A stretch of DNA of 64,000 bases from Pedobacter ghigonis (lineage in GTDB: Bacteria; Bacteroidota; Bacteroidia; Sphingobacteriales; Sphingobacteriaceae), in the NCBI RefSeq assembly GCF_903166585.1, contig NZ_CAESCM010000022.1:1-64000 (forward strand). The letters run 5' to 3'. Positions 47,901 to 64,000 of the stretch are shown here, in pieces (positions within the stretch are counted from its first letter, which is position 1; every line of letters begins with the position of its first letter). The notes under the pieces were generated by a model. The model was not told the origin of the DNA. It ran no database searches and worked only from the letters and a program-made list of their open reading frames with translations. A program made the translations under genes and the position numbers.

Positions 47901-48984
47901 GTTTTACAAGGTAATGTCTAACGAATCGTTAAAAATGGGCTTTGGTATCGGACTTTATTTAGCTAAAAACTTTGTAGAGCTGCACAAAGGTAAAATCTCT
48001 TTCAGTGCAAATCCGGGCATGGGGACAACCTTTTTAGTCGATATTCCAGTGGGTGAACCCCATTTGCCGCAACATAGCAGTGCTTTGCAGAATGAGCTTA
48101 CCTATGTAAACGAACTGATTGCACAAGAGGAAGAAATAGAAAACAACGAAGCCGAAAATGTGGGTAACCTCGAATTATTGATTTCCGACCTGCATTCTAT
48201 CCTCATTATAGACGATAATCCCGAGATTATAGATTATATCAAACATATTTTTCAGGATAGCTTTAAAGTGTACAAGGCCGAAAATGGTACCGATGGATTG
48301 CGTTTGTGCAAAGAATACCTGCCCGATATTGTGATTTCGGATGTAAACATGGATGGACTTAATGGTATTGAGCTTTGCAAGGCCATAAAAGATGATTCGG
48401 CATTGAGCCACATCCCGGTAATCTTGTTAACCGGCGATCCAAGCCCTGAAATTAAGCTGAAGGGTATAGAGGTTGGAGCTTATGATTTTATCAGTAAACC
48501 TTTTGATAAGGAGTTGTTTACGGCAAAAATTAACGGTATCATTAAGAACCACACCAATTTGCAATCGTATTTTTATAACGAGATCACCCTGAAATCAGAT
48601 ACCCACAAAGTATCGCAGGAGGATAAAGGCTTTTTACAGAAATGCATTACCATTATTGAAGAAAATTTAATGGAAGACAGTTTCAATGTAAAAACACTGG
48701 CTTCTGATTTGGGGATGAGTCATTCTAACCTCTACAAAAAGATTAAAACTACTTCGGGGCAAAGTATCAATGGCTTTATTCGCTTTATCCGTTTACGTAA
48801 GGCAGCAGAGTTGCTTATTAATACCAATTTGAATATTAACGAAGCCGCATTCAGGGTGGGCATAAACGATAGCAAATACTTTAGAGAACAGTTTCAGAAA
48901 CTCTTTAAATTAACTCCTTCGGAGTTTATTAAAAAGCACCGCAAAAGTTTTCACAAATATTATAATATCAATGCTACCACATAA
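44938..48984 (+). CDS. hybrid two-component system sensor/regulator (HTCS)
   Basis: 1348 residues in one chain. Signal peptide 1-24; two-bladed periplasmic sensor of Reg_prop beta-propeller repeats from 30 to about 640 (NGLSNNVVNSLYLDGFGFMWMGTYDGLNRYDG...); Y_Y_Y domain 690-760; membrane helix near 770-790 (WWAYTIYLVIGSSLFYLF); phosphoacceptor His828 (ISHELRTPLTL); ATPase domain about 935-1045; receiver about 1085-1200 with Asp1135 (VISDVNMDG); AraC HTH about 1250-1340. Such proteins sense an oligosaccharide in the periplasm and switch on the neighbouring utilisation genes. The downstream order of exported enzymes and SusC/SusD fits this. Its DNA site is probably the ACCCCT repeat upstream of susC. 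Confidence 0.95.
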   Translation: MFPIHKTTVCTIFCLWLSISVCFSQTPAFTIKYLGVENGLSNNVVNSLYLDGFGFMWMGTYDGLNRYDGYHFKVFRNGWGDENSLVNNHITVLNGDQKNRVWVGTQKGISYYDYADSKFHQLFYQDRGKRNEVGFSINAIAVSKATAVYVATDEKGLFLLKKDSPLAEQIPFGKNLNYTVKALYVDDKETLWLFIKDVGLCRYDAGKNTIRLVTPVLRSVTSITAGTNQTLWVGTERGLFQFNPISNGLTRFSQHLPNENIMGLVLDKQQKLWISTDGGGIAIYDTRSQKISYLAAGKEKDVLSSNSVAQVYEDHESRKWIATLRGGVNIIDQENEQFKTIKHDPLKSNSLINNFVLSFSEDENKNIWIGTDGGGLSVWNQKQNTFTNYAKTADPGSLISNFVTSILNDASHNTWVATFSGGIDRYDRAKGKFIHYNCYNTVKGVDEVNLWKLYQDKQQNLWAGTTKGGALYRYNKALDKFDLFDNRLKDIHTLFQDSKGRLWGGNYAELIKIDPVNKKHEYFKVNFAIRAIHEDASHRLWVGTEGGGLLLFDPESKKIKRYIQSDGLPGNSVLNILEDKQGNLWCSTYNGLSKFDVKNNSFKNYYATDGLQSNQFNYNAALKLSNGNLLFGGIGGFNLFSPDSIKKNKRIPKIVLTDFRINNVPLDQDSNYRDVSVVNLERISIPFNSAVISVDYAAVEFSFQDQISYAYYLEGWDRDWNYVNKLSTAYYSRLNEGKYKLHIKSTDTEGAWSNNEKVVIITILPPWYRTWWAYTIYLVIGSSLFYLFQTYRNRQRRLKHEVEITNLKMEREKDLNEKKLNFFTNISHELRTPLTLIVNPIKDILHKKEAGQEKNDLNVVYRNSRRLLSLVDQLLLFRKTESENDILKIVRINLFKFTNEIFLCFNYLAKNNHINYIFECEEEEQDIYADKDKLEIVLFNLLSNALKFTPKGGYVKFSVKTDGARVQIEVRDSGPGIPADVGEKLFDKFYKVMSNESLKMGFGIGLYLAKNFVELHKGKISFSANPGMGTTFLVDIPVGEPHLPQHSSALQNELTYVNELIAQEEEIENNEAENVGNLELLISDLHSILIIDDNPEIIDYIKHIFQDSFKVYKAENGTDGLRLCKEYLPDIVISDVNMDGLNGIELCKAIKDDSALSHIPVILLTGDPSPEIKLKGIEVGAYDFISKPFDKELFTAKINGIIKNHTNLQSYFYNEITLKSDTHKVSQEDKGFLQKCITIIEENLMEDSFNVKTLASDLGMSHSNLYKKIKTTSGQSINGFIRFIRLRKAAELLINTNLNINEAAFRVGINDSKYFREQFQKLFKLTPSEFIKKHRKSFHKYYNINATT

Positions 48985-49009: not shown

Positions 49010-49031
49010 GGGTGTTTTTCTTAAAACGCCC
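49010..49031 (+). terminator. hairpin after the HTCS gene
   Basis: GGGTGTTTT (49010-49018) pairs with AAAACGCCC (49023-49031; one T-G pair) around the loop TCTT. There is no long T-run afterwards, so it could be a weak terminator or an RNA stabilising end. It separates the regulator from the BNR gene. Confidence 0.45.
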
Positions 49032-49044
49032 CCTTCAAAGTATG

Positions 49045-49062
49045 ATTTAGCCCCCTGTTTAT
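49045..49062 (+). promoter_or_regulatory. possible HTCS half-site before the BNR gene
   Basis: ATTTAGCCCCCTGTTTAT resembles the first half-site upstream of susC (ATTTAACCCCTATTTAT at 58248-58264) and of the next gene (63761). The second half-site is not present. It lies about 60 bases before the BNR gene. Confidence 0.4.
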
Positions 49063-49122
49063 AGCGTAAAAAAAGCGGTACTTCGGCATTACCAAATAAA
49101 ACTGAGCAGCCTAAATTCTGAT

Positions 49123-50448
49123 ATGTACCAAGCGCCTTTTAAAAGTATAATTTTTACCTGTTTTTGCTTCCTTGTAAGTTTTACCTGTTTTGCACAAGAA
49201 ACACAATTGAGCACCATTGCTGCTAATGGCTGGGCCAATAATTCGGTCAATACGGTTATTTTTCGCAAAAACGCACTCGTTACTTTTAAAAATACGCAGT
49301 ATGCATCTTATTACGATCACGAACAATATGTAGTACTTGCCAGCCGTAAATCAGGTGCCCAAAAATGGGAAGTACAGAGAACGGTTTACAAAGGAGATGC
49401 TACCGATGCCCATAAATCCATTAGTATTATGGTTGATGGGGATGGTTTCCTGCACCTGGCCTGGGGGCAGCACAACAACAATTTAAACTATGCCAAATCT
49501 GTAGCAGCAGGTTCGTTAGCTATGGGTGATAAAATGCCTATGGTTTCGGCAAAAGAGAATAAGGTGAGTTATCCTGAATTTTATAAGCTTGCCAATGGCG
49601 ACCTGTTGTTTTTTTACCGCGATGGGGGCTCGGGCAATGGAAACCTGATGATTAACCGCTACAGTTTGAAGACTCAAAAATGGACACGTGTACAAGATGG
49701 AATGATTGATGGCGAAGGGCAGCGTAATGCCTACTGGCAGGTTGCGGTAGACAAGGCTGGTACCATCCATTTATCGTGGGTGTGGCGCGAAAGTCCGGAT
49801 GTGGCCAGTAACCACGATTTAGCTTACGCCAAATCTACCGATGGCGGCCTTACCTGGTTCAAATCTACCCATGAAAAATATACTCTCCCCATTACGGCCA
49901 CCAATGCAGAATATGCACTTAAAATTCCGCAGAAAAGTGAGCTGATTAACCAGACCTCGATGTTTGCAGATGCACAGGGAAAAGTGTTTATTGCCGGTTA
50001 CTGGCGCGAAGCGAATGAAAGCATTCCACAATACCATCTCGTTTTTAAAACAGCAGGAAACTGGCAGGTGAGCAACCTCAACTTCCGGAAAACGCCCTTT
50101 AGTTTAAGTGGGGGCGGAACCAAAAAGATTCCCATTTCGCGACCACAGATTATCGTTTGGCCTAATGGTAAAAATTATGCAGCAGGTTTATTGTTTAGAG
50201 ATGCAGAACGTGGAAATAAAGCTTCAATTGCCTTAAACAACAATTTGGGCGCAGGCAACTGGACAATTAAAGACCTCACCGAAACCAGTGTGGGCGATTG
50301 GGAACCCACTTACGATACGGAGCTTTGGAAAAGCAAAGGCACTTTGAGCCTGTTTTTACAGCAGGTAACCCAGGTTGATGGCGAGGGCCGTGCCAACCAG
50401 GCACCAACCGCCGTACAGGTATTAGATTGGAAACCCAAAAACAAATAG
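49123..50448 (+). CDS. BNR_4 beta-propeller protein (lyase/GH145-like candidate)
   Basis: 441 residues with signal peptide (FLVSFTCFA-QE). The Asp-box repeats of a BNR-type propeller are spread along it: DGDGFLHLAWGQHNNNLNYAKS, SYPEFYKLANGDLLFFYRDGG, DGEGQRNAYWQVAVDKAGTIHLSWVWRESPDVASNHDLAYAKSTDGGLTW. The His-rich text is typical of family PF15892, whose characterised relatives include PL24/PL25 ulvan lyases and GH145/PL27 enzymes that remove rhamnose from Rha-GlcA caps of arabinogalactan. With a GH105 two genes away, a lyase making unsaturated uronate ends is attractive, but reaction and substrate are inferred. First enzyme gene after the HTCS. Confidence 0.75.
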   Translation: MYQAPFKSIIFTCFCFLVSFTCFAQETQLSTIAANGWANNSVNTVIFRKNALVTFKNTQYASYYDHEQYVVLASRKSGAQKWEVQRTVYKGDATDAHKSISIMVDGDGFLHLAWGQHNNNLNYAKSVAAGSLAMGDKMPMVSAKENKVSYPEFYKLANGDLLFFYRDGGSGNGNLMINRYSLKTQKWTRVQDGMIDGEGQRNAYWQVAVDKAGTIHLSWVWRESPDVASNHDLAYAKSTDGGLTWFKSTHEKYTLPITATNAEYALKIPQKSELINQTSMFADAQGKVFIAGYWREANESIPQYHLVFKTAGNWQVSNLNFRKTPFSLSGGGTKKIPISRPQIIVWPNGKNYAAGLLFRDAERGNKASIALNNNLGAGNWTIKDLTETSVGDWEPTYDTELWKSKGTLSLFLQQVTQVDGEGRANQAPTAVQVLDWKPKNK

Positions 50449-50464
50449 CGAATTCAACACATAT

Positions 50465-52633
50465 ATGATACATCCCCTCTTAAAATATCTTTCCCTGGCC
50501 GGTATAGCGCTGTTGGTTTCGGCCAATGGGGTACATGCACAAGCTAAAAATGGTGCTGCCACAGCGGCCGGAAACAGCGCCTATCTGTTTACTTATTTCA
50601 CAGGCAATTCAAAAGCAGAAGAAGCCATTCGTTTTGCCATTAGCAGCGATGGCTATCATTACAGGGCTTTGAACCATAACAATCCTGTAATTTCTTCCGA
50701 GAAAATCAGCAGCACAGGTGGCGTGCGCGATCCGCATATTTTGCGCGGGGCCGATAACAAAACCTTTTATATGGTGGCTACCGATATGGTTTCGGCGAAA
50801 GGATGGAATTCCAACCGGGCGATGGTGCTGTTAAAATCAACTGATCTGATCCACTGGACTTTCAGTATTGTGAATATTCAGCAACGTTTTCCCAACAACG
50901 AAAACCTGTTGCGCGTATGGGCACCACAAACCATTTACGATACCAAAGCGAAAAAATACATGGTATACTGGTCGATGAAGCATGGTAACGACCCGGATAA
51001 AATTTATTATGCCTATGCCAATGCAGCTTTTACGGATTTGGAAACCGAGCCTAAACAGCTTTTTTTCAGTCCAACAAATGGCTCTTGCATTGATGGTGAC
51101 ATTATTTACGATAAAGGCAAGTACAATCTTTTCTTTAAAACCGAAGGAAATGGTAATGGTATTAAAAAGGCAGTTTCCGATCAGTTAACCGAAGGTTATA
51201 AGCTTCAGGATAACTATTTACAGCAAACTACCGATGCGGTTGAGGGTGCCGGAGTGTTTAAACTCAATCAGGGCGATGCATATATTTTGATGTATGATGT
51301 GTATATGAAAGGCCGCTATCAGTTTACCAAAAGTACTGATCTGGAGCATTTTAAGGTGGTTGATCAGGATATCAGCATGGACTTTCATCCCCGCCATGGT
51401 ACGGTTTTGCCCATTACACAATCAGAAGCCAATCGCCTGCTAACGCAATGGTACAATGCTTCGGCCGTATTACAGCATGCCGGAAACAAAGCTGTTAAAC
51501 AAAATAACATCGTGGTTGATTCGGTTGCCAAAACCGTTTATTTACCTGTTCAGCCAGGTACTGGTTTAAAGGCTTTCAATCCACAGTTTTCAAATGCTTT
51601 TGGGGTTACAATTTCGCCTGCGGGTAGTCCTGATTTTAGCAAAGGGGCTGTGAAATACACGGTTAAAGTAGGAAATAAGGCTCCTGAAACCTATGCGGTT
51701 AGTGTATCAGCAGATCACAACCCGGTTTTGAACGGGTATTATGCCGATCCGGAAATCATCTATTCCAATAAAAACAAAAAATACTATTTATACCCTACCA
51801 GTGATGGTTTTACCGGCTGGAGTGGCACTTATTTTAAAACTTTTTCATCAGCCGATTTAGTGAACTGGAAAGATGAAGGAGTGATACTCGATCTGGAAAA
51901 AGATGTTTCATGGGCCAAAAAGAATGCCTGGGCACCCACCATTACCGAGAAAAAGATAAATGGAAGCTATAAATACTTCTATTATTTTACGGCGGCACAA
52001 AAAATAGGGGTAGCGGTAGCCGATGATCCCGCCGGACCATTTAAAGACAGTGGAAAGGCTTTAATTTCGAAAAGACCTGCAGGTACACGTGGCGGACAAG
52101 AGATTGATCCTGATGTTTTTACCGACCCAAAGACCGGAAAAAGTTATTTGTTTTGGGGTAACGGCCACATGGCTGTAGCACCACTAAACGACGATATGGT
52201 TTCTGTAGATACCACTTCCATCAGGGTAATTACGCCAAACAGCAGTTTTCGAGAAGGAACCGAGATATTTTACCGCAAGGGGAAATATTATTTTCTGTGG
52301 TCGGAAGATGATACCCGAAGCGAAAATTACCGTGTGCGTTACGGCTATGCCGATTCTTTAACAGGCAAAATGATTATCCCAACCGATAACCTGATCCTAT
52401 CCAAAAGGCCCGAAAAAGGAATTTACGGCACCGGGCACAACAGCGTAATCAAGGTGCCGGGTAAAGATGAGTGGTACATGGTTTACCACCGTTTTAACAG
52501 GCCAAAAGGAATTACCATGGGCGATGCCGCCGGTTACAACCGCGAGGTTTGCATCGATAAAATGGAATTCAATACCGACGGAACAATTAAAGCCGTAGAA
52601 CCAACTTTAAAAGGAATAAAACCAGTAAAATAA
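50465..52633 (+). CDS. bimodular GH43 glycoside hydrolase
   Basis: 722 residues, signal peptide to about residue 26 (NGVHA-QA). There are two five-bladed propeller domains. The first (about 35-350) opens with GGVRDPHILRGADNKTFYMVATDM, the GH43 base Asp near residue 92. The second (about 420-720) opens with LNGYYADPEIIYSNKNKKYYLYPTS, base Asp near 428, and contains the acid Glu in FREGTEIFYRKGKYYF. A fold linker (residues 350-415) joins them. Arabinofuranosidase, xylosidase or galactosidase activity is possible; the pairing suggests removal of side-chain sugars. Its TAA stop and the next ATG overlap by one base (TAATG), so the GH105 gene is coupled. Confidence 0.88.
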   Translation: MIHPLLKYLSLAGIALLVSANGVHAQAKNGAATAAGNSAYLFTYFTGNSKAEEAIRFAISSDGYHYRALNHNNPVISSEKISSTGGVRDPHILRGADNKTFYMVATDMVSAKGWNSNRAMVLLKSTDLIHWTFSIVNIQQRFPNNENLLRVWAPQTIYDTKAKKYMVYWSMKHGNDPDKIYYAYANAAFTDLETEPKQLFFSPTNGSCIDGDIIYDKGKYNLFFKTEGNGNGIKKAVSDQLTEGYKLQDNYLQQTTDAVEGAGVFKLNQGDAYILMYDVYMKGRYQFTKSTDLEHFKVVDQDISMDFHPRHGTVLPITQSEANRLLTQWYNASAVLQHAGNKAVKQNNIVVDSVAKTVYLPVQPGTGLKAFNPQFSNAFGVTISPAGSPDFSKGAVKYTVKVGNKAPETYAVSVSADHNPVLNGYYADPEIIYSNKNKKYYLYPTSDGFTGWSGTYFKTFSSADLVNWKDEGVILDLEKDVSWAKKNAWAPTITEKKINGSYKYFYYFTAAQKIGVAVADDPAGPFKDSGKALISKRPAGTRGGQEIDPDVFTDPKTGKSYLFWGNGHMAVAPLNDDMVSVDTTSIRVITPNSSFREGTEIFYRKGKYYFLWSEDDTRSENYRVRYGYADSLTGKMIIPTDNLILSKRPEKGIYGTGHNSVIKVPGKDEWYMVYHRFNRPKGITMGDAAGYNREVCIDKMEFNTDGTIKAVEPTLKGIKPVK

Positions 52634-53766
52634 TGAACCCGTTTAAATTATACAGATCAATTTTTGTTGCCCTTTGCCTCGTCTTATTTTCGATAAGTGC
52701 TTATGCACAAACCAAAGCAGATGTGCTGGCTAAAATTAACCTCGCCAACCAGTACTGGCAAACCAACAATAAACCACAGGTACGCGCTTTTTGGGATCAT
52801 GCAGCCTACCATACCGGCAACATGGAACTTTATGCACTTACTCAGGATAATAATTATTTGAAATATTCGGAAGATTGGGCAGAATACAACCAATGGATGG
52901 GCGCAAAATCGACTGATAAAACCAAATGGAAATATAAGTACGGCGAAACAGATGAATATGTGCTTTTTGGCGATTGGCAGATTTGTTTCCAAACCTACAT
53001 TGATTTGTACCACATTAAACCCGAAGCCCATAAAGTAGCCCGTGCCAAAGAAGTAATGGACTACGAAATGAGCACGCCCAATAACGACTACTGGTGGTGG
53101 GCCGACGGACTTTACATGGTTATGCCGGTAATGACCAAGTTATACAAGCTTACGGGCAACAAGCAATATTCGGATAAGCTTTACGAGTATTTTATGTACG
53201 CCAACAACATTATGTACGATAAAGAGGAGAAACTCTACTACCGCGATGCCAAATATGTTTATCCGCAACATAAAAGTGTAAACGGTAAAAAAGATTTCTG
53301 GGCCAGGGGCGATGGGTGGGTGTTTGCCGGTTTGGCCAAGGTGTTGAAAGACCTGCCTGCTAACGATCCGCACCGTGCCGAATATCTAACGAAATACACA
53401 AACATGGCCAAAGCCATTATCAAAAGCCAGCAGGCTGACGGTTATTGGACCCGCAGTATTCTCGATGCAAGCCATGCACCGGGGCCTGAAACCAGTGGAA
53501 CCGCATTTTTTACCTATGGTTTGCTTTGGGGAATTAACAATGGATATTTAAAAGAGAAGACCTATATGCCGGCTGTGAAAAAAGGCTGGGATTATCTTAC
53601 TAAAACAGCTTTACAACAAGACGGCAAGCTGGGCTATGTACAGCCCATTGGCGAAAAGGCCATTCCGGGGCAGGTAGTGGGTGTCAATTCTACAGCCAAC
53701 TTTGGAGTAGGGGCATTTTTATTGGCCGGTTGCGAAATGTACCGTTATTTATCAAACCACAAATAA
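52633..53766 (+). CDS. GH105-type unsaturated rhamnogalacturonyl/glucuronyl hydrolase
   Basis: 377 residues, signal peptide to about residue 25 (SISAYAQ). The (alpha/alpha)6 barrel of GH88/GH105 is clear: WWWADGLYMVMPVMTKL with the catalytic Asp, KDFWARGDGWVFAGLAKVL, and HAPGPETSGTAFFTYGLLWGINNGYL. These enzymes hydrate and release the 4,5-unsaturated uronic acid left by a polysaccharide lyase. The neighbouring BNR_4 protein could be that lyase. The export signal means it would act in the periplasm on imported oligosaccharides. Confidence 0.9.
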   Translation: MNPFKLYRSIFVALCLVLFSISAYAQTKADVLAKINLANQYWQTNNKPQVRAFWDHAAYHTGNMELYALTQDNNYLKYSEDWAEYNQWMGAKSTDKTKWKYKYGETDEYVLFGDWQICFQTYIDLYHIKPEAHKVARAKEVMDYEMSTPNNDYWWWADGLYMVMPVMTKLYKLTGNKQYSDKLYEYFMYANNIMYDKEEKLYYRDAKYVYPQHKSVNGKKDFWARGDGWVFAGLAKVLKDLPANDPHRAEYLTKYTNMAKAIIKSQQADGYWTRSILDASHAPGPETSGTAFFTYGLLWGINNGYLKEKTYMPAVKKGWDYLTKTALQQDGKLGYVQPIGEKAIPGQVVGVNSTANFGVGAFLLAGCEMYRYLSNHK

Positions 53767-53778
53767 GTTTTATTAGCA

Positions 53779-55026
53779 ATGAAATTCAGAAATATAGCAT
53801 TAACCTTTACATTTCTTATCGTACTTGCTGCCCCGGTTATGGCACAAAAGAAAGCCAAAAATACGAAAGCCGAAGTATTAACCGATAGGCAGTTCTGGTT
53901 GCAGCAAATGGACAAAATGGTGCGTCCGGTGCTGTACAATCTGGCTAAAGATAGCCTGCGTATTGCCATGCCTAAAGTTACATCGGTACACATTGACAAC
54001 AAAGAGCATCGCATTAAAGTACAATACGTAGAGGTTTTAGGTCGAGCTTTGAGTGGTATTGCTCCCTGGTTACAATTGGAAGGAGGTTCGGCTGCAGAAG
54101 TGGCTCTCCGTAAACAATACCGCGAATGGGCTATCCAGGGTTTAAAAAACGCTTTAGATTCGAACGCTAAAGATTTCATGAATTTCGATATTGGCGGCCA
54201 GCAACTGGTTGATGCTTCTTATGTAGCTTTTGCACTGGTACGTGCGCCATGGTTATGGGAAAACTTGGATAAGAAAAACCAGGAGCTAATGATGAAATCC
54301 ATCGTCACTACCAGACGTTTTAAACCTGTTTTTTCTAACTGGTTGCTGTTTTCGGCTATGAACGAAGCCTTTTTAGCTAAATTTGGCTACAGTTGGGATC
54401 CCATGCGTGTAGATTATGCCCTGCAACAAATGGAGCAATGGTACACCGGCGATGGCATGTACACAGATGGTACCTCTTTTGCCTTCGATTATTACAACAG
54501 CTATGTAATTCATCCATATTTAGCCGCTCTGGTTGATATTATTGGTGCAAAAACGAATGCTTACAAAGAAATGTTCGAAAAAATTAAAAAGCGCAACGAA
54601 CGTTACGCCATTATTCAGGAGCGTTTAATTAATGCAGATGGTACTTATCCTGCTACCGGGCGCTCTATCGTTTACCGTGGTGCAGCATTTCACCATTTGG
54701 CCGATATGGCCTGGAGAAAGGTATTGCCTAAACAATTAAGTCCGGCGCAGGTACGTTGCGCTTTAACCGCGGTAATCAAAAAAACTTTAGAAAGTCCTAC
54801 AACCTATAAAAATGGCTGGTTAACCATTGGTCTTTATGGCGATCAGCCTAACCTGGGCGATTTTTACAACAACCAGGGGAGCCCTTATATCGCATCCAAT
54901 ATCTTTTTGCCCCTGGGATTGCCCGAAACCGACCCGTTTTGGTCGGGACCTGCCGTCAAATGGAGTGCGCAAAAAATATGGAGTGGCGAGGACTTCGAAA
55001 ACGACCATAGCGCAAGTTTAAAATAA
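53779..55026 (+). CDS. exported DUF2264-family protein
   Basis: 415 residues with signal peptide (LIVLAAPVMA-QK). An alpha-helical barrel-like protein of the DUF2264 type: FWLQQMDKMVRPVLYNLAKDSLRIAMPK, EVLGRALSGIAPWLQLEGGS, YTDGTSFAFDYYNSYVIHPYLAALV, YPATGRSIVYRGAAFHHLADM, NNQGSPYIASNIFLPLGLP. DUF2264 proteins are repeatedly found in pectin and arabinogalactan loci beside GH105 and are suspected glycan-active enzymes; no activity is firmly established to my knowledge. It is 12 bases after the GH105 stop, in the same operon. Confidence 0.85.
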   Translation: MKFRNIALTFTFLIVLAAPVMAQKKAKNTKAEVLTDRQFWLQQMDKMVRPVLYNLAKDSLRIAMPKVTSVHIDNKEHRIKVQYVEVLGRALSGIAPWLQLEGGSAAEVALRKQYREWAIQGLKNALDSNAKDFMNFDIGGQQLVDASYVAFALVRAPWLWENLDKKNQELMMKSIVTTRRFKPVFSNWLLFSAMNEAFLAKFGYSWDPMRVDYALQQMEQWYTGDGMYTDGTSFAFDYYNSYVIHPYLAALVDIIGAKTNAYKEMFEKIKKRNERYAIIQERLINADGTYPATGRSIVYRGAAFHHLADMAWRKVLPKQLSPAQVRCALTAVIKKTLESPTTYKNGWLTIGLYGDQPNLGDFYNNQGSPYIASNIFLPLGLPETDPFWSGPAVKWSAQKIWSGEDFENDHSASLK

Positions 55027-55120
55027 GTGAATAAATTATTTGGTAGATACCTATTGAAGTCAAACAGATGTTAAGTAAATTACCGTCTTTATAACGTTAA
55101 AAAAAATATTGGTGAAAATT

Positions 55121-56239
55121 ATGAGTAAGAAAATCAATTTTATAGCCGGATTTATGGCTTTCGGCTTAATGCTGAACAGTTATGTTTGGGCACAGCAAAC
55201 CAACACTTCCTTTACTCCGGGTAAAATCTGGAAAGACGATAAAGGCGTGCACATTAACGCACACGGTGGCGGTATTGTAGAACATAAAGGTGTTTATTAC
55301 TGGTTTGGAGAACATAAAATTGAAGGAGAAAAAGGGAATACCGCGCAGGTAGGTGTGCACTGTTATTCTTCAAAAGATTTATACAACTGGAAAGACGAAG
55401 GTATTGCGCTACCGGTTTCCGACGATTTAACCAGTGATATTGCCAAAGGTTGTATTTTGGAGAGACCAAAAGTAGTGTACAATAAGAAAACCAAAAAGTT
55501 TGTGATGTGGTTTCACCTCGAGCTTTTGGGTAAAGGTTACGCAGCGGCCAGATCAGGAGTAGCTGTGGCCGATCGTCCTACAGGTCCATATACTTTTATC
55601 AAAAGCTATCGCCCAAATCCGGGCAAGATGCCTTTCTATGCCGAAGGAACTGCAGATAAAGATAAGGTAAACTGCGAAACACCTGCCAATAAAAGCGATG
55701 GTTTTTTCTGCAGGGATTTACCAGGTGGACAAATGGCCCGCGATATGACTGTTTTTGTAGATGATGATGGAAAAGCTTATCACATCTTCTCATCTGAAGA
55801 AAACTTTACGCTGCATTTAGCCGAATTAACCCCCGATTATTTAGGCCATACCGGCAAGTTTATCCGTATTTACGTAGGTCAGCAAACCGAAGCGCCTGCT
55901 TTGTTTAAGAAAAATGGCGTGTACTACATGGTTGGGTCGGGCTGTACCGGCTGGGCACCAAACCCGGCAAGGTGGTTTAAAGCCAGTTCAATCTGGGGGC
56001 CGTGGACCTACATGGGTAATCCATGCCAGGGCGAGGGTGCTAAACTTACCTATGGAGGTCAAAGCACACATGTGTTGCCTGTACCGGGTAAAAAAGGCGA
56101 ATTCATATTTATGGCCGATAAATGGGAACCTAAAAATGCGATAGATGGCCGTTATTTATGGTTACCAATTCGATTTGAAAACGATAAAATCACAATAAAC
56201 TGGCTCGATCAGTGGGATTTGAGCGTGTTTAAAAAGTAG
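55121..56239 (+). CDS. GH43 (subfamily 24-like) exo-beta-1,3-galactanase candidate
   Basis: 372 residues from ATG 55121; an upstream in-frame TTG at 55109 is less likely. Signal peptide to VWAQQ. The text HINAHGGGIVEHKGVYYWFGEHKI and the acid Glu114 in LERPKVVYNKKTKKFVMWFH are the signature of GH43 enzymes of the Ct1,3Gal43A type, which cleave beta-1,3-galactan from the non-reducing end and can bypass beta-1,6 side chains. GGQSTHVLPVPGKKGEFIFMADKWEPKN is also typical. The activity is inferred. It would attack the backbone of type II arabinogalactan. The 82-base spacer before it suggests a continuing operon. Confidence 0.87.
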   Translation: MSKKINFIAGFMAFGLMLNSYVWAQQTNTSFTPGKIWKDDKGVHINAHGGGIVEHKGVYYWFGEHKIEGEKGNTAQVGVHCYSSKDLYNWKDEGIALPVSDDLTSDIAKGCILERPKVVYNKKTKKFVMWFHLELLGKGYAAARSGVAVADRPTGPYTFIKSYRPNPGKMPFYAEGTADKDKVNCETPANKSDGFFCRDLPGGQMARDMTVFVDDDGKAYHIFSSEENFTLHLAELTPDYLGHTGKFIRIYVGQQTEAPALFKKNGVYYMVGSGCTGWAPNPARWFKASSIWGPWTYMGNPCQGEGAKLTYGGQSTHVLPVPGKKGEFIFMADKWEPKNAIDGRYLWLPIRFENDKITINWLDQWDLSVFKK

Positions 56240-56278
56240 CAAAAAACCGATTTTTTAATATAGAATCCAGATGATGAA

Positions 56279-56323
56279 TTGCGCGAAAATGCGCAAAAGG
56301 GGATTTTTATGCCCAAAAAATCC
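56279..56323. other. two hairpins between the GH43 and GH35 genes
   Basis: TTGCGC-GAAAAT-GCGCAA (56279-56296) is followed by GGATTTTT-ATGCCC-AAAAAATCC (about 56300-56323). They lie in the 101-base spacer before GH35 and could separate or stabilise two parts of the operon transcript. Neither has a T-run of its own. Confidence 0.4.
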
Positions 56324-56340
56324 GATTACTTAAAAACAAA

Positions 56341-58191
56341 ATGTACAAGATGAAAAAGAAATTACTATGGCTGGTGGCGATATGTTTTTCCCTCTCTGCT
56401 TCGGCGCAGCAGGCAAAACATACCTTTAAACTAGGCGAATCAGACTTTTTGCTGGATGGAAAACCCTTTCAGATTATATCAGGCGAACTCCATTATCCCC
56501 GCGTACCCAAAGAAGCCTGGCGCGAACGGATGAAAATGGCTAAAGCCATGGGCTTAAATACCATCGGAACCTATGTATTCTGGAACCTGCACGAGCCGCA
56601 GAAAGATAAATTCGATTTTAGCGGTAACAACAACATCGCCGAATTTGTAAAAATTGCGCAGCAGGAGGGACTTTGGGTAATTTTAAGGCCAAGCCCTTAC
56701 GTATGTGCCGAATGGGAATTTGGCGGCTATCCATACTGGTTGCAGAACGAAAAAGGCCTGGTGGTAAGAAGTACCGAAAAACAATACCTGGAAGAGTATC
56801 GGAAATATATCCAGCAAGTAGGAAAGCAGTTGGCTCCATTGCAGATTAACCATGGAGGTAATATCATTATGGTTCAGGTAGAAAACGAATACGGTTCGTA
56901 CGCAGCCGATAAAAATTACCTGGATATCAACCGTAAAATGTTTATAGATGCTGGGTTTGATGGTCTGCTCTACACCTGCGATCCTGCACCAGATGTAAAA
57001 GACGGACATTTAGCTGGTTTATTGCCTGCAGTAAACGGTATCGACAATCCCGAAAAAATTAGAAAGCTGGTAAATGAAAACCACGATGGAAAAGGGCCTT
57101 ATTTTATTGCAGAATGGTATCCGGCATGGTTCGATTGGTGGGGAACAGCACACCACACGGTACCGGCAGCACAATATACCAAAAAGCTCGATTCGGTTTT
57201 GGCGGCAGGCATATCCATTAACATGTACATGTTTCATGGTGGCACCACACGTGACTTCATGAACGGAGCCAATTATAAAGACATTTCGCCTTACGAACCT
57301 CAAACCAGCAGCTACGATTACGATGCTCCTTTAAACGAAGCAGGAAACGCTACGGAGAAGTTTATGCAGTTTAGAAGCGTAATCGAGAAACATTTGCCAA
57401 AAGGCCAGACTTTACCCGCAGTGCCAGCAGCAAAACCCGCTATGGCCATTGCACCATTTAAATTAAGCGGAACAGTAGCTTTATTTGATGCCTTACCAGC
57501 TGCGGTTAAAAATGTTAATCCCTTAACTTTCGAAGACCTGAAACAAGATTACGGTTATGTGCTTTATCGTACTACCATTCAGGGTGGACGCAAAGGAGCA
57601 CTGGAGATGAAACAATTACGCGATTATGCCATTGTGTTTGTTAACCAGAAAAGGGCAGGGGTTTTAGATCGACGGTTAAACCAAAATACCCTGGAAATCA
57701 GCCTTCCTGCAGGAGAAGTACAACTCGATATTTTTGTAGAAAACATGGGACGTGTAAACTTTGGCAAGTACCTGTTAGAAAACAAAAAAGGAATTACCGA
57801 ACAAGTAAATTTTGCAGGTGCCGAAGTTAAAAACTGGTCGATGTATGGTTTTCCTTTTAGTAGCATCAATAATTTCGCGGCTAAAGCCACTGCTACCGGG
57901 AAGAGTGGTAATGGGCCAACAGTACAAAAAGGATCCTTTACCATTAATACTGTTGCCGATACTTATCTGGATATGACCGATTGGGGAAAAGGTGTGGTTT
58001 GGATAAACGGACATAACCTGGGCAAGTACTGGGCAATTGGTCCGCAACAAACATTGTACGTACCCAAAGAATGGTTAAAGAAAGGTAAGAATGAGGTAGC
58101 CGTTTTAGAATTGCTTAAAACCGATCAGCAAATTTTAAAAACGATAGACCAGCCGATCTTAAACACGCTTAAAAAATTAAACGTTGATTAA
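56341..58191 (+). CDS. GH35 beta-galactosidase (second)
   Basis: 616 residues, signal peptide (MKKKLLWLVAICFSLSASAQ; ATG 56350 is an alternative start). Acid/base Glu183 in QVENEYGSYA and nucleophile Glu258 in FIAEWYPAWFDWWG; the signature PQTSSYDYDAPLNEAG is intact. The C-terminal half is the usual jelly-roll pair, ending without the discoidin module present in the enzyme at 26870. It should remove terminal beta-galactose in the periplasm, working with the GH43 enzymes of this locus. Last enzyme before SusC. Confidence 0.92.
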   Translation: MYKMKKKLLWLVAICFSLSASAQQAKHTFKLGESDFLLDGKPFQIISGELHYPRVPKEAWRERMKMAKAMGLNTIGTYVFWNLHEPQKDKFDFSGNNNIAEFVKIAQQEGLWVILRPSPYVCAEWEFGGYPYWLQNEKGLVVRSTEKQYLEEYRKYIQQVGKQLAPLQINHGGNIIMVQVENEYGSYAADKNYLDINRKMFIDAGFDGLLYTCDPAPDVKDGHLAGLLPAVNGIDNPEKIRKLVNENHDGKGPYFIAEWYPAWFDWWGTAHHTVPAAQYTKKLDSVLAAGISINMYMFHGGTTRDFMNGANYKDISPYEPQTSSYDYDAPLNEAGNATEKFMQFRSVIEKHLPKGQTLPAVPAAKPAMAIAPFKLSGTVALFDALPAAVKNVNPLTFEDLKQDYGYVLYRTTIQGGRKGALEMKQLRDYAIVFVNQKRAGVLDRRLNQNTLEISLPAGEVQLDIFVENMGRVNFGKYLLENKKGITEQVNFAGAEVKNWSMYGFPFSSINNFAAKATATGKSGNGPTVQKGSFTINTVADTYLDMTDWGKGVVWINGHNLGKYWAIGPQQTLYVPKEWLKKGKNEVAVLELLKTDQQILKTIDQPILNTLKKLNVD

Positions 58192-58208: not shown

Positions 58209-58262
58209 AAATAGGGGTTAAAGGCCAAAATTTAACAAAAAGTAACAATTTAACCCCTATTT
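58209..58262. terminator. 14-bp inverted repeat after the GH35 gene
   Basis: AAATAGGGGTTAAA (58209-58222) and TTTAACCCCTATTT (58249-58262) are perfect reverse complements around a 26-base loop. It begins 17 bases after the GH35 stop, so it may be a terminator; its right arm is also the first regulator half-site described at 58224-58312, so it could instead be part of an operator or an RNA switch. The left arm is absent in the second copy at 63736. Confidence 0.5.
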
Positions 58263-58312
58263 ATTACCGTATTACCCCTCACTCCGGCGCGGTTTTAAAT
58301 GGTTAATTTGTT
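58224..58312 (+). promoter_or_regulatory. conserved upstream element of susC, with two ACCCCT half-sites
   Basis: ACCCCT occurs at 58253-58258 and 58274-58279, exactly 21 bp (two helical turns) apart. ATGGTTAATTTGTT follows at 58299-58312, 25 bp after the start of the second. The same order and spacings recur at 63736-63825 before the next gene. TTTG in AATTTG may be a -33 element. A site for the HTCS is the natural reading. Confidence 0.65.
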
Positions 58313-58433
58313 GTAATTAATCCATCCCATTCATGCATAATTTATACATCCAGTCAGGCTAGTGCTTTGCCAGTAAGCCAGCATTGAATCTTTCAAATGA
58401 TTCAATTATTAACTAACCAAATAATCTTTAAAA

Positions 58434-61433
58434 ATGAAAAGAAAACTACTAGCCACATCTAAGTGTGCAGTAATATTTTTGTTTGCTTTAATCTTATCAT
58501 TAGGTAAATCAAACGATGCCATTGCGCAAACAAACGCTCAAACCTCAATTTCCGGAAAAGTAAAAGATAACCAGGGCAACCCGATACCAGGAGCTTCCAT
58601 TAGTGTTAAAGGAACAAATCAGGTTGTAGCCAGCGATCCGAATGGGAATTTCAAAATAGCTGTTAAAAAAGGTGAAACTTTAGTGATTACTTTTGTGGGA
58701 TATGTAACCAATACCATATTAATAGCCGATCAGACCCAACTCAGCATTACCCTTGCCGAAGATAAAGACAAGAACCTGGAAGAAGTAGTAGTGGTGGGTT
58801 ATGGTACACAAAAGCGTTCGGATATTACCGGTGCAGTGGCCTCACTTTCGAAAGAACGTTTATCGCAACTACCTGTTACCAATGTTTTGCAGGCTGTACA
58901 AGGAGCAGTGGCTGGTGTAAATATTACCAGTGGCTCTTCAGTACCAGGAAGCCAGCCAAGCGCCTCTATACGCGGCCAAAATTCAATTACTGCAGGTACG
59001 GGGCCATTTGTTGTAGTAGATGGAGTACCATTAAGCAAAACGGGTGGTTCGTTAAATGACATTAATCCAAACGATATTGCCTCTGTAGAAATATTAAAAG
59101 ATGCATCATCTACCGCTATTTATGGTACCAATGGTTCTAATGGTGTTATCCTGGTTACCACTAAAAGAGGAAATACGGGTAAACCTACAATCAGATACAA
59201 TGCTTATGCAGGTGTAGAAAATATCGCACACATTTTAACGCCAAGAACTGGTGAAGAATATGTTCAAAAATATGCCGATTTCTTAAAACAGATTAATCAG
59301 CCACAAAACAGCCCGGTTCCAAACTTCGGCGAACTGGCCAATTATAATGCAGGTATTACAACCGATTGGGTAAAGGAAGTAACCCAAACAGGTGTGATGC
59401 AAGACCATAATTTAAGCATCTCGGGAGGAAGCCAGGATGTGAAATATTTTATCTCAGGAGGTTACCTGGATCAAAGGGGGCCGATTAAAGGGTATCAATA
59501 TAACAGAACCAGCTTACGTTCTAATTTAGATGTTAACATTACCGATTATTTAACGGTTGGTACATCATTGTTTTTTGCAGGCAATAACTACGATGGTGGC
59601 AGGGCTAACTTGCTTTTTGCTACAGCCATGAGTCCTTATGCTCCTGTGTATAATGACAAGGGAGAATATAAAATTTTTCCAATGGAGCCTGAGCAGTTAT
59701 ACACCAACCCATTACTTGGTTTAAAAACCGACAGGATTAGCAGAAGCACCAATTTAAATGGAAATGGTTATGCAGAAATTAAGTTTCCCGGAGCACTAAA
59801 AGGATTAAAATATCGCTTAAACGGTGGTTATACTTTCTTTCCCGAAAATTCTGCCAGTTATACCGGAAGAAAGGCAAATGATATGCTGGGTACTGCCCGG
59901 ACTTTTTACGCGCAAACCAACAGTTATACACTCGAAAATTTGCTGACATACACCAAAGATATTCAGAAACACCATTTCGATTTTACAGGTTTATACAGTG
60001 CGCAGCAAAGAAAATATACCAATACAACTGCTGGTGCCGTAGGTTTTGTGAACGACGAGCTTTCGTATAATAAGTTAAGCGCAGGTGCTACGCAAACCAG
60101 CGATTCGTATGCCGATCAATACCGTTTAAATTCGCAAATGGTAAGGGTTAATTATGCATACGATAGCCGTTATTTATTTACCGCAACGGCCCGACGTGAT
60201 GGTTCTTCTGTATTCGGTGCCAATACTACCAAATACGGTATTTTCCCTTCAGTAGCTGCCGGATGGAATATCAGCAGGGAAAATTTTATGAAAAATGTTT
60301 CATTCGTAAATAACCTTAAGCTAAGAGGTTCTTATGGTAAAACAGGTAATGAAGCTGTTAGTGTTTATCAAACCATAACTACTGAAGGCGCATTGCGTTT
60401 TCCGTTTAACGGACTTAGCACCATTGGTGTTACGCCAAGCAATTTAGGTAATGCTAACCTGCACTGGGAAAGTACAACTACAGCAAACCTGGGATTGGAT
60501 TTCTCTTTGTTTAGCGACCGCATAAATGGTACCATTGATGTTTATAGCGGCAAAACAAAAGATTTACTGCTAAACAGAAGTTTACCAATCATCACCGGGT
60601 ATTCAAGAATTTTAGATAATCTGGGTAAAGTCCAAAATAAAGGTATTGAGATAACCATTAATACAAAAAATATTGCTCAGGGCGATTTTAAATGGGAAAC
60701 TTCGGCCAATTTCAGCTCCAATAAGAATAAGATCGTAGAACTGTACGGAGATGGAAAGGATGATTTAGGTAACCGGTGGTTTATTGGCAAACCAATTAGT
60801 GTGATTTATGATTACCGTATGACTGGTGTTTGGCAAACCGGAGAAGATGCTTCAAAACAGGATCCGGGTGCAAAGCCAGGCGATCTGAAATTTGCTGATC
60901 TCAATGGTGATGGCGTAATTACTGCAGATAAAGATCGCGAAATTATTGGTCAGCGTGCTCCAAAATGGACAGGTGGTTTAACCAATACTTTCCATTACAA
61001 AAACTGGAATTTAAGCGTATTTATTCAAACTGCACAAGGCATTACCAGAAACAATACCGATTTAAATTATGGCGATGAAACAGGTAGAAGAAATACACCT
61101 GCAGAAATTGGTTATTGGACTGTAAGTAACGCAAGTAACACACGTCCGGCATTATCTTACAATAACACCAGAGGCTATGGATATGCATCAGATGCGAGTT
61201 ATACCCGTATAAAAGATGTAACAGTTAGCTATGTTTTTTCTCCGAAAATTATGGAGAAACTGCATTTGGGCAGCCTAACCCTATATGCAAGCGGCAGAAA
61301 CCTATACACTTTTACCAATTGGATAGGATGGGATCCTGAAAACGATTATTCTGGCCGTGGTTCGGGAGATTGGACCAATAACTATCCTTTAACACGCTCT
61401 TTTGTGTTTGGAGCAAATATTTCTTTAAAATAA
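58434..61433 (+). CDS. SusC/RagA-family TonB-linked outer membrane protein
   Basis: 999 residues, signal peptide to about residue 32 (SNDAIAQ). CarbopepD_reg-like domain at about 38-115 (SGKVKDNQGNPIPGASISVKGTN), TonB-box-like EEVVVVGYGTQKRSDITGAV, plug (VLQAVQGAVAGVNITSGSSVPGSQPSASIRGQNSI...SVEILKDASSTAIYGTNGSNGVILVTT) and the SusC barrel ending LTRSFVFGANISLK. It imports oligosaccharides across the outer membrane with SusD (61455). Regulated by the element at 58224. Substrate inferred from the neighbouring enzymes. Confidence 0.95.
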   Translation: MKRKLLATSKCAVIFLFALILSLGKSNDAIAQTNAQTSISGKVKDNQGNPIPGASISVKGTNQVVASDPNGNFKIAVKKGETLVITFVGYVTNTILIADQTQLSITLAEDKDKNLEEVVVVGYGTQKRSDITGAVASLSKERLSQLPVTNVLQAVQGAVAGVNITSGSSVPGSQPSASIRGQNSITAGTGPFVVVDGVPLSKTGGSLNDINPNDIASVEILKDASSTAIYGTNGSNGVILVTTKRGNTGKPTIRYNAYAGVENIAHILTPRTGEEYVQKYADFLKQINQPQNSPVPNFGELANYNAGITTDWVKEVTQTGVMQDHNLSISGGSQDVKYFISGGYLDQRGPIKGYQYNRTSLRSNLDVNITDYLTVGTSLFFAGNNYDGGRANLLFATAMSPYAPVYNDKGEYKIFPMEPEQLYTNPLLGLKTDRISRSTNLNGNGYAEIKFPGALKGLKYRLNGGYTFFPENSASYTGRKANDMLGTARTFYAQTNSYTLENLLTYTKDIQKHHFDFTGLYSAQQRKYTNTTAGAVGFVNDELSYNKLSAGATQTSDSYADQYRLNSQMVRVNYAYDSRYLFTATARRDGSSVFGANTTKYGIFPSVAAGWNISRENFMKNVSFVNNLKLRGSYGKTGNEAVSVYQTITTEGALRFPFNGLSTIGVTPSNLGNANLHWESTTTANLGLDFSLFSDRINGTIDVYSGKTKDLLLNRSLPIITGYSRILDNLGKVQNKGIEITINTKNIAQGDFKWETSANFSSNKNKIVELYGDGKDDLGNRWFIGKPISVIYDYRMTGVWQTGEDASKQDPGAKPGDLKFADLNGDGVITADKDREIIGQRAPKWTGGLTNTFHYKNWNLSVFIQTAQGITRNNTDLNYGDETGRRNTPAEIGYWTVSNASNTRPALSYNNTRGYGYASDASYTRIKDVTVSYVFSPKIMEKLHLGSLTLYASGRNLYTFTNWIGWDPENDYSGRGSGDWTNNYPLTRSFVFGANISLK

Positions 61434-61454
61434 TTTATCGCTAAAAAGAAGATC

Positions 61455-63089
61455 ATGAAAAAATTAAAATATATACTGTTCTCTTCTCTTGCAGTGTCGC
61501 TGATGTTTTATTCTTCGTGCAAGAAAGCGTTTTTGGATGAAAAACCATATTCGAGTTATACGCCCATTACCTTAAACGATTCGCTTGGTTTTGAGGCCTC
61601 TTTAATTGGCTTGTACAACCACGTAAGTACCATCTATTCTTATGCCGATCAGCAGGGCTGGCCGAGTGTTTGGCAGGTGGGTACCGATGTAGCTAACGCT
61701 ACAACCAACCAGCAGGGGGTCGAAGTACCCTATTACGATTATACCCAGTTAACGCCAACTGATGGGGCTGCTGCGTACATGTGGAACCGGAATTATATTA
61801 TGATTAACCTTTCAAATGTAATTATCGATGGAATAGAAAATCCGTCGGTTACGGCAATCAGTAGCAAAGGAAAAGCAGCAATTAACGCCGAAGCCAAATT
61901 TTTCAGGGCTTTTGCTTATAATACTTTGGCAACCTTGTACGGCAAAGTACCACTAATTAAAAATGCACTTACCGCCCCTAAAACCGATTTTGTACGGGCT
62001 CCGCTTAATGAGGTAAACGATTTTATTGTGAACGATCTGCTTTTTGCAGTGGCAAACTTACCCGATATTGAAGCCGTTAAATCGAATACAAAAGGTAAAA
62101 TGTATGGCAGGGCTAATAAATTTATGGCTATGCAGTTACTGGCAGAAGTATACCTCAGAATGGGTAAAAATGATTTAGCCGAGCAACAGGCCCTGGGCAT
62201 CATCAACAGCGGTAAATTTAGCTTAAATAAAGCGCGTTTTGGTGTTAAAGCCAGTTTACCTGGTGATTACTATTCAGATCTGTTTGTGTATGGCAACCAA
62301 CGCCGTTCTCAAAATAACAAAGAGGTAATTTGGACCTTAGAACAAGAAAACCCATCAAGTGTGGTAGGCGGTATTACCAATAACCCGCAACAAAGAAGGG
62401 TATGGGGTACAGGATATTACGCTATACAGGGGATGGTTTTAGCCGATTCTTTAGGCGGTAGAGGATTATCGAGGTTAAGACTAAGCAACTGGTTTTTATA
62501 TAGCCTGTACAAGCCTGGCGATATCAGAAACTCGCAATACAATGTGAAAAGAAGATTTTATTATAACGACCCTACAAATGCCAAATACGGACAGATTATT
62601 CCTTATACTGGTCCGGATACTTTATTTAAGATTAACCCTTCTATTACCAAATGGAATCAATTTGACCCTAACGATACCTTCGGTTTCGCAATGATTAAAG
62701 ATTTCATTCTGATGCGCCTCGGAGAAACTTACTTATTACTGGCAGAAGCACAGTTTAAACAAGGTAAGCTAATCGATGCGGCAGCTTCCATTAATGAGTT
62801 GAGGAAAAGGGCATTTGTTGATTATCCTACCCGTGGGCAGGTACAGGCTTCAGACATTAATCTCAATTTTATATTGGATGAACGTGCACGCGAACTAATT
62901 GGCGAAGAAAACAGAAGAATGACTTTAATGCGTACAGGTACCTTGGTTGACCGTGCTATTAACTTAAACAGTAACGATGCTGCAAAACCTTTAAAAGGCT
63001 TGACTTCAAAAAACTTATTGTTACCTATTCCGTTAACTGAAATCCAATTGAACAAGGATGCGCTCTTAGAACAAAACCCAGGATATTAA
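61455..63089 (+). CDS. SusD/RagB-family glycan-binding lipoprotein
   Basis: 544 residues with a lipoprotein signal (SLAVSLMFYSSC, lipobox YSSC near residue 22). The TPR-rich fold shows FFRAFAYNTLATLYGKVPLI, MQLLAEVYLRMGKNDLAEQQALGIINSG and the conserved C-terminal LDERARELIGEENRRMTLMRTG near 480. It captures glycan at the cell surface and hands it to SusC. Starts 21 bases after susC and ends at an intrinsic terminator, closing the operon. Confidence 0.95.
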   Translation: MKKLKYILFSSLAVSLMFYSSCKKAFLDEKPYSSYTPITLNDSLGFEASLIGLYNHVSTIYSYADQQGWPSVWQVGTDVANATTNQQGVEVPYYDYTQLTPTDGAAAYMWNRNYIMINLSNVIIDGIENPSVTAISSKGKAAINAEAKFFRAFAYNTLATLYGKVPLIKNALTAPKTDFVRAPLNEVNDFIVNDLLFAVANLPDIEAVKSNTKGKMYGRANKFMAMQLLAEVYLRMGKNDLAEQQALGIINSGKFSLNKARFGVKASLPGDYYSDLFVYGNQRRSQNNKEVIWTLEQENPSSVVGGITNNPQQRRVWGTGYYAIQGMVLADSLGGRGLSRLRLSNWFLYSLYKPGDIRNSQYNVKRRFYYNDPTNAKYGQIIPYTGPDTLFKINPSITKWNQFDPNDTFGFAMIKDFILMRLGETYLLLAEAQFKQGKLIDAAASINELRKRAFVDYPTRGQVQASDINLNFILDERARELIGEENRRMTLMRTGTLVDRAINLNSNDAAKPLKGLTSKNLLLPIPLTEIQLNKDALLEQNPGY

Positions 63090-63112
63090 TCCCGTCCTTT
63101 TATATTTATTCT

Positions 63113-63150
63113 AGCTCCTTAACTGCTTTGTGCAGTTGGGGAGCTTTTTT
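63113..63150 (+). terminator. intrinsic terminator after the susD gene
   Basis: AGCTCCTTAACTGC (63113-63126) pairs with GCAGTTGGGGAGCT (63132-63145), 14 bp including two G-U pairs, loop TTTGT, and is followed by a T-run (63145-63150). Confidence 0.85.
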
Positions 63151-63155
63151 GTTTC

Positions 63156-63370
63156 TAACCGCAAAGTGCGCTGAGGTTGTTAGTCTTAAAATTTATAAAC
63201 CACCAAGCCGCGAAGTACACTAAGTTTCATGTAATTAAAATATCGCTACCAATTTTGCTTTGTGTGCTCAGTGATTTCTCTCTGTTTACTCTGTGGTTAA
63301 ATGTGAATGCTATGCCTTCTCTTTACGTCCTTTGCGGTTAAAATCTTTCTTTCTCTGCGGTTAAATTATG
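63156..63370. repeat. scattered AACCGCAAAG / TGCGGTTA repeats, both orientations
   Basis: TAACCGCAAAGTGCGCTGAG starts at about 63156. Inverted forms follow (CTCTGTGGTTAAATG near 63290, CCTTTGCGGTTAAAATC near 63330, CTCTGCGGTTAAATTATGCG near 63353), and CCGCGAAGTACACTAAG lies at about 63210. They use the same vocabulary as the array at 39202-39890, mainly in the opposite sense. No gene is seen in this stretch. Confidence 0.75.
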
Positions 63371-63735
63371 CGTTGTACCTAAAAATAAACCAATTTAAAT
63401 GAAAGCTTCCTGCAGTATGCAGCGTTAAATCATGAGGGTTATGAAACTTTCCTGCCATCGGAAGCACAAAATCATGATTTTTTGAAAAAAGCTTAGAAAA
63501 GCATTTTGTATCTAGTTTATACCGGCTGATTCAGTTGCCTGAGAAAGACAATGGATACCAGATTAAAACATATCAAAACATTAGATCGTTTAGCGCAGTA
63601 GATTTTTGTTTTGCGCAGAATCAAACGCTCAAAATCCTGGTTTATTTAGCGGTAAAATTACCACCTTAAGTTTTGAATTATAAACGTATAATTGACGTTT
63701 ATAAAAATGAATTTTTATTCGAAAAACGCTAAAAA
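63371..63735. other. spacer with no recognised gene
   Basis: AT-rich, about 360 bases. It contains an ATCATGA / TCATGAT inverted pair near 63430-63480, but I see no open frame with family features, no tRNA and no clear promoter. Confidence 0.4.
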
Positions 63736-63825
63736 GCCCAAAAAATGGTAAAAAATAACAATTTGACCCCTTTTTATTACTGGATTACCCCTCACTACCA
63801 GGCTCTTTTTTATGGTTAATTTGTT
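63736..63825 (+). promoter_or_regulatory. second copy of the susC upstream element
   Basis: ACCCCT at 63766-63771 and 63787-63792 (21 bp apart), then ATGGTTAATTTGTT at 63812-63825, 25 bp after the second. Spacings match 58224-58312 exactly, and flanking text (ATAACAATTT, TTTATTAC, ATTACCCCTCACT) is also shared. It stands about 137 bases before the truncated gene at 63962, as the first copy stands about 122 before susC. Confidence 0.65.
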
Positions 63826-63961: not shown

Positions 63962-64000
63962 ATGAAAAGACAAAAAAGAGCGAATTCGGTATCTCCAGAT
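63962..64000 (+). CDS. start of a truncated gene, probably a second SusC-type receptor
   Basis: Thirteen codons (MKRQKRANSVSPD) are visible before the window ends. The sequence is too short to identify a family. The upstream copy of the susC regulatory element and a similar leader length suggest another locus gene under the same regulator, for example a second SusC. Confidence 0.5.
   Translation, partial: MKRQKRANSVSPD

Follow-up and report, generated by a model that had tools for sequence, protein, structure and literature searches.

What reads a promoter element that one bacterial locus carries twice, and which genes answer to it? The question is raised by the 64,000-nt window of Pedobacter ghigonis DNA analysed here (positions 1–64,000 of contig NZ_CAESCM010000022.1), where an element of about 90 bp stands upstream of a susC gene and recurs shortly before the window's end. 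The genes concerned form a PUL whose order within the window is sulfatase, HTCS, BNR_4, GH43, GH88, DUF2264, GH43, GH35, SusC1 and SusD1, followed past the window by SusC2 (1084 aa), SusD2, DUF4959/DUF5000 and DUF4998 proteins, GH16, an NrtR-like regulator, galT and galK. Judged by this gene content, the substrate would fit a galactose-rich polysaccharide such as arabinogalactan.

The regulator encoded within the PUL, at 44938–48984, combines in one chain the propeller sensor, histidine kinase, receiver and AraC-type DNA-binding domain of an HTCS (Pfam); the best PDB match of a fragment of it is the solved HTCS fragment 12aw (E 4.5e-43), and its orthologues in the close relatives P. soli and P. 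kyungheensis are 94% identical. As argued below from comparative sequence analysis, the element is very probably the operator, together with the core promoter, by which this HTCS activates its own PUL. We refer to the putative operators before susC genes as class A and to the one before the hydrolase operon as class B; the features of the locus are as follows.

44938–48984, plus strand: HTCS regulator with Reg_prop propeller, Y_Y_Y, HisKA, HATPase_c, Response_reg and HTH_18/AraC domains (Pfam, orthologues)
about 48535–48981: DNA-binding region of the HTCS
49029–49056, plus strand: putative operator B, with CCCCCT at 49029–49034, a 16-bp gap and CCCCCT at 49051–49056 (22-bp period)
49079–49086, plus strand: probable -7 box of the class B promoter, TACTTCGG
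49123–58191, plus strand: BNR_4, GH43, GH88, DUF2264, GH43 and GH35 genes, tightly spaced and co-oriented, after operator B
58248–58282, plus strand: putative class A operator A1; its 35-nt core has ACCCCT at 58253 and 58274 (21-bp period)
58303–58310, plus strand: -7 box TTAATTTG of the SusC1 promoter
58434–63089, plus strand: SusC1 (58434–61433) and SusD1 (61455–63089), predicted target of A1 (Pfam)
63761–63795, plus strand: putative class A operator A2; its 35-nt core has ACCCCT at 63766 and 63787 (21-bp period)
63816–63823, plus strand: -7 box TTAATTTG of the SusC2 promoter

The duplicated element

In a pairwise alignment, the two copies (58220–58312 and 63733–63825) match without gaps over 93 nt at 80% identity, which extends to the DNA outside the core. 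Exact matches to the 30-nt core pattern TTNACCCCTNNTTATTACNGNATTACCCCT lie at 58250 and 63763; the rest of the window has none, even with up to three mismatches allowed, and dinucleotide shuffles put the chance expectation at 0.00; the duplication reported in an earlier note on this DNA is therefore real. Equally sound is its statement that the spacings are identical in both copies, since the repeat is ungapped and the -7 box lies at the same distance from either core. The note's formula of two ACCCCT boxes with 21 bp between them holds as a start-to-start period; as a gap it does not, for the boxes are separated by 15 bp and a literal N21 matches neither pair. In the whole 5.92-Mb genome, perfect ACCCCT-N15-ACCCCT is found at two places only, namely the two copies; six further places with one mismatch were set aside as chance, their count being no higher than in the backward control.

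The distance to the start codon, by contrast, proved not to be similar, as had been supposed: SusC1 begins at 58434, 151 nt downstream of the 35-nt core of A1, whereas SusC2 begins beyond the window at contig position 64318 (L009:1318), 522 nt downstream of the core of A2. An ATG near 63963 does not begin any long frame.

A third site before the hydrolase operon

The box at 49045, previously described as a weaker half-site, is present, but it turned out to be the right half of the complete tandem site that we list as operator B. Its probable -7 box begins 22 nt after the right CCCCCT box, and in most class B orthologues TACTTCG is found at this same distance. Of the 45 genomes with an HTCS orthologue, 41 have kept the arrangement (a count for which G090 and G121 fell outside the DNA covered), with a period of 21–22 bp in most, and it persists where the operon has a different first gene (DUF2264 or GH43).

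The class A matrix gives the BNR site a score of about -44, far below class A sites, and site B was found through alignment and a relaxed tandem pattern, since the matrix misses it. The class B alignment comprises close orthologues only, as aligning the complete set of 39 BNR upstream regions with MAFFT gave no informative result. CCCCT-N15..18-CCCCT occurs 86 times in the loci fetched from the genomes (3.2 Mb with both strands; some loci overlap), and nearly all of these occurrences are class A or class B sites of the PUL. Because of its architecture, position and conservation, rather than its matrix score, site B is likely to belong to the same HTCS regulon.

Footprint across Pedobacter

A matrix scan of orthologous loci yielded 57 class A sites in 43 Pedobacter genomes, with scores of 24–64 bits against a best score of -11 in the reversed-sequence control. 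The regulon signature, TAACAATTTAACCCCTAYTTATTACCGTATTACCCCTCAC, is a 21-bp direct repeat, and the -7 box (TTAnTTTG; compare the published consensus TAnnTTTG, PMC9723704) ends 26–28 nt after the core. Core and -7 box are conserved, and the bases between them have diverged. No -33 box is visible in class A promoters, as expected of promoters that depend on an activator.

Wherever the downstream gene could be resolved, the first locus-gene homologue after a class A site is a susC, at a distance of 49–535 nt with the sole exception of G112 (1667 nt). The same core stands before three non-orthologous types of susC: those like SusC1, those like SusC2, and a third type with about 30% identity.

In some class A sites (G009, G118, G020, G135 and G149; L047, L206, L041, L184 and L180), the right box is extended to the palindrome CCCCTCAATTGAGGGG, or nearly so, which adds an inverted third box beside the promoter.

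Co-occurrence of the sites with the HTCS

The strict motif (up to three mismatches) is present in 38 of the 145 Pedobacter genomes sampled, with zero control matches. Across 400 genomes of the family it is confined to this one genus among 25, and it was found in no sampled genome of the other genera. Orthologues of the HTCS, at 67–100% identity, occur in 45 of the 145 genomes: in 37 of the 38 with the motif and in 8 of the 107 without it. Counted the other way, 37 of 45 HTCS genomes carry the motif, compared with 1 of 100 lacking the HTCS (Fisher P = 2e-25, a statistic that takes genomes as independent and is inflated by their shared ancestry).

Most of the eight HTCS genomes without the strict motif are exceptions in appearance only, given that five of them (G035, G079, G099, G112 and G156) have weaker class A sites. 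G031 and G161 keep the HTCS and site B, with no class A site and no SusCD homologue in the fetched region, and the eighth, G124, is on an 8.3-kb contig. The G031 locus (C32:25000–40000, L043) is decayed, with its GH43 gene split and its GH88 gene truncated, and retains both the HTCS and site B.

In three draft assemblies (G097, G103 and G111), the class A site and the HTCS, whose DNA-binding region is 93–95% identical, lie on different contigs; physical linkage is therefore not the whole reason for their co-occurrence. G003 (C2:654000–670000, L172) has class A and class B sites and the PUL genes and no orthologous HTCS, its closest DNA-binding regions being 54% identical; this is either an orphan regulon with relic sites or a case in which the sites are read by a paralogue.

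Which regulator reads the element?

That the HTCS at 44938 is the reader, as the earlier note had proposed, is supported by the footprint and the co-occurrence just described, by the separate contigs, by the lack of class A sites in G031 and G161, which kept the HTCS and lost the susCD pairs, and by the published 21-bp design of HTCS operators discussed below; its binding to the element is a prediction. Another regulator might instead be responsible, above all the NrtR/AraR-like protein encoded beside galT–galK (L009:10775–11473, contig 73775–74473), whose gene has been kept beside the PUL in close relatives; BtAraR, a Bacteroides regulator of the NrtR family, controls L-arabinose utilization (PMC4666351). 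However, homologues of the NrtR-like protein occur in 113 of the 145 genomes, many of them motif-free. Even at 85% identity or more, 18 genomes have the protein without the strict motif and nine have the motif without such a homologue, so that the HTCS (37 of 45 versus 1 of 100) separates motif genomes far better. Given also that the element is a direct repeat at an activator's position, we consider an NrtR-like reader very unlikely.

Still less probable is that a recent duplication of a susCD promoter segment left the repeat behind as a mere by-product, without any specific regulator being involved. Two copies in one genome that are 80% identical, DNA outside the core included, agree with such an origin, but orthologous promoters have kept the core while the DNA in between diverged, the core precedes susCs with about 30% mutual protein identity, and the differences between the A1 and A2 flanks are retained in orthologues. 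Many susC genes in Bacteroidetes are under ECF sigma/anti-sigma control, so the sites could also belong to a susC system of that (FecR) type. Occurrence of the element at such susCs, which the earlier note had named as evidence against its own proposal, was not seen: neither SusC1 nor SusC2 has an STN domain, and a Pfam scan of neighbouring genes turned up none for a sigma factor or FecR. As the promoters, moreover, carry a sigma-A-like -7 box, we regard this as the least probable of the three alternatives.

If the HTCS is the reader, its periplasmic sensor would presumably bind its oligosaccharide, upon which the receiver domain would be phosphorylated. The AraC-type DNA-binding domains of an HTCS dimer could then bind head-to-tail at two half-sites around ATTTA(A/G)CCCC, placed on one face of the helix and two turns (21–22 bp) apart. 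The bound dimer would sit just upstream of the -7 box, whose sequence is TTAnTTTG in class A promoters and TACTTCGG at site B. There it would occupy the position of the -33 region, which is poorly conserved, and would recruit sigma-A RNA polymerase. Three promoters are the predicted targets: B, serving the hydrolase operon; A1, serving SusC1D1; and A2, serving SusC2D2 and further genes past the window's end. What the sequences show directly is the sites, their spacing, the -7 boxes, their conservation and their co-occurrence with the HTCS; we infer that the HTCS binds and activates, how its dimer is oriented and what induces it.

Comparison with known systems

The 16 HTCS motifs predicted for Bacteroides thetaiotaomicron and its relatives are all direct repeats, with an average distance of 21 bp between tandem sites, which was interpreted as HTCS dimers binding on one DNA face, two turns apart (Ravcheev et al. 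2013; PMC3878776). The Pedobacter sites resemble these operators in being direct repeats of about 21 bp upstream of susC or hydrolase operons, near an AraC-type HTCS of the same PUL with whose orthologues they are conserved – a likeness to the described repeat design rather than to the motif logos (PMC3878776). They differ in their genus, in the CCCC core and the largely invariant spacer, and in the 22-bp version at the hydrolase operon. The switch type is thus already known, and is here traced through the soil-bacterium genus Pedobacter.

Response-regulator fragments of two other HTCSs, BT4124-RR and BT4663-RR, bind susCD promoters in gel shifts (PMC11253607); these HTCSs share the architecture of the one at 44938, whereas regulators and sites differ, and binding is predicted in our case. 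SusR, too, has tandem sites upstream of susC, but its motifs are 67 or 77 bp apart (PMC3878776), a spacing unlike the 21–22 bp found here.

Related HTCSs and the choice of sites

In Bacteroides, similar DNA-binding domains have been reported to go with similar motifs (PMC3878776). Among the motif genomes checked, the DNA-binding region of the HTCS is 88–95% identical, compared with 54% or less in the nearest paralogues. HTCS homologues with a 52–54% identical DNA-binding region have tandem boxes nearby that read TTTACCCC(T/G)CTAATATTAGCTGTTTACCCCC and are 23 bp apart, and the HTCS of G012 (48% identity over its full length) adjoins ACCCCT boxes 22 bp apart. Beside the other HTCSs examined in the P. 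ghigonis genome itself (G000), no tandem CCCC site was seen, one unclear case apart, nor was there any in the Flavobacterium loci L132 and L139, whose HTCSs are 40% identical. At an HTCS of 32% identity, G000 has ACCCCTAAAAGGAAAAAAATACCCCCT with 21-bp spacing about 90 bp upstream of a susC (C5:114803–114829), which may be due to chance. A candidate in G014 (HTCS 56%) was rejected as probably fortuitous, having no susC behind it.

These observations provide a well-supported definition of an operator–promoter unit for an HTCS outside gut Bacteroides, a predicted target set within one PUL and some 40 orthologous regulons for comparison. As the identity of the DNA-binding region drops from 88–95% to 54% or less and the boxes of paralogues differ in both sequence and spacing, this is a good system in which to study how HTCSs choose their sites. 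What goes beyond the routine is the constancy of the operator in front of changing, unrelated susCs, and the series of 21-, 22- and 23-bp spacings. Tentatively, spacing on the shared CCCC core (21 bp at susC, 21–22 at the hydrolase operon and 23 at the HTCS relatives) might tune promoter strength within a regulon and prevent cross-talk between related HTCSs, the operator–promoter unit remaining fixed while unrelated susCD pairs are swapped behind it; we think this possible rather than probable.

The SusC2 leader and the interval before operator A2

The leader of SusC2 (contig 63824–64317, L009:824–1317) is unusually long, running for about 495 nt past the -7 box, and the distance from core to start is about 410–535 nt in most close relatives. 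It contains conserved blocks, for example AGATTAACTACC..AATAATTGATGG near the 5' end and ATGAAGAAAG..AAATCTACTC further on. A search of the leader gave no credible Rfam match; the blocks could be a short leader ORF.

About 670 bp (63090–63760) with no long ORF separate SusD1 from operator A2. Short imperfect direct repeats occur there at 63399–63477, and the interval is perhaps the remnant of a gene.
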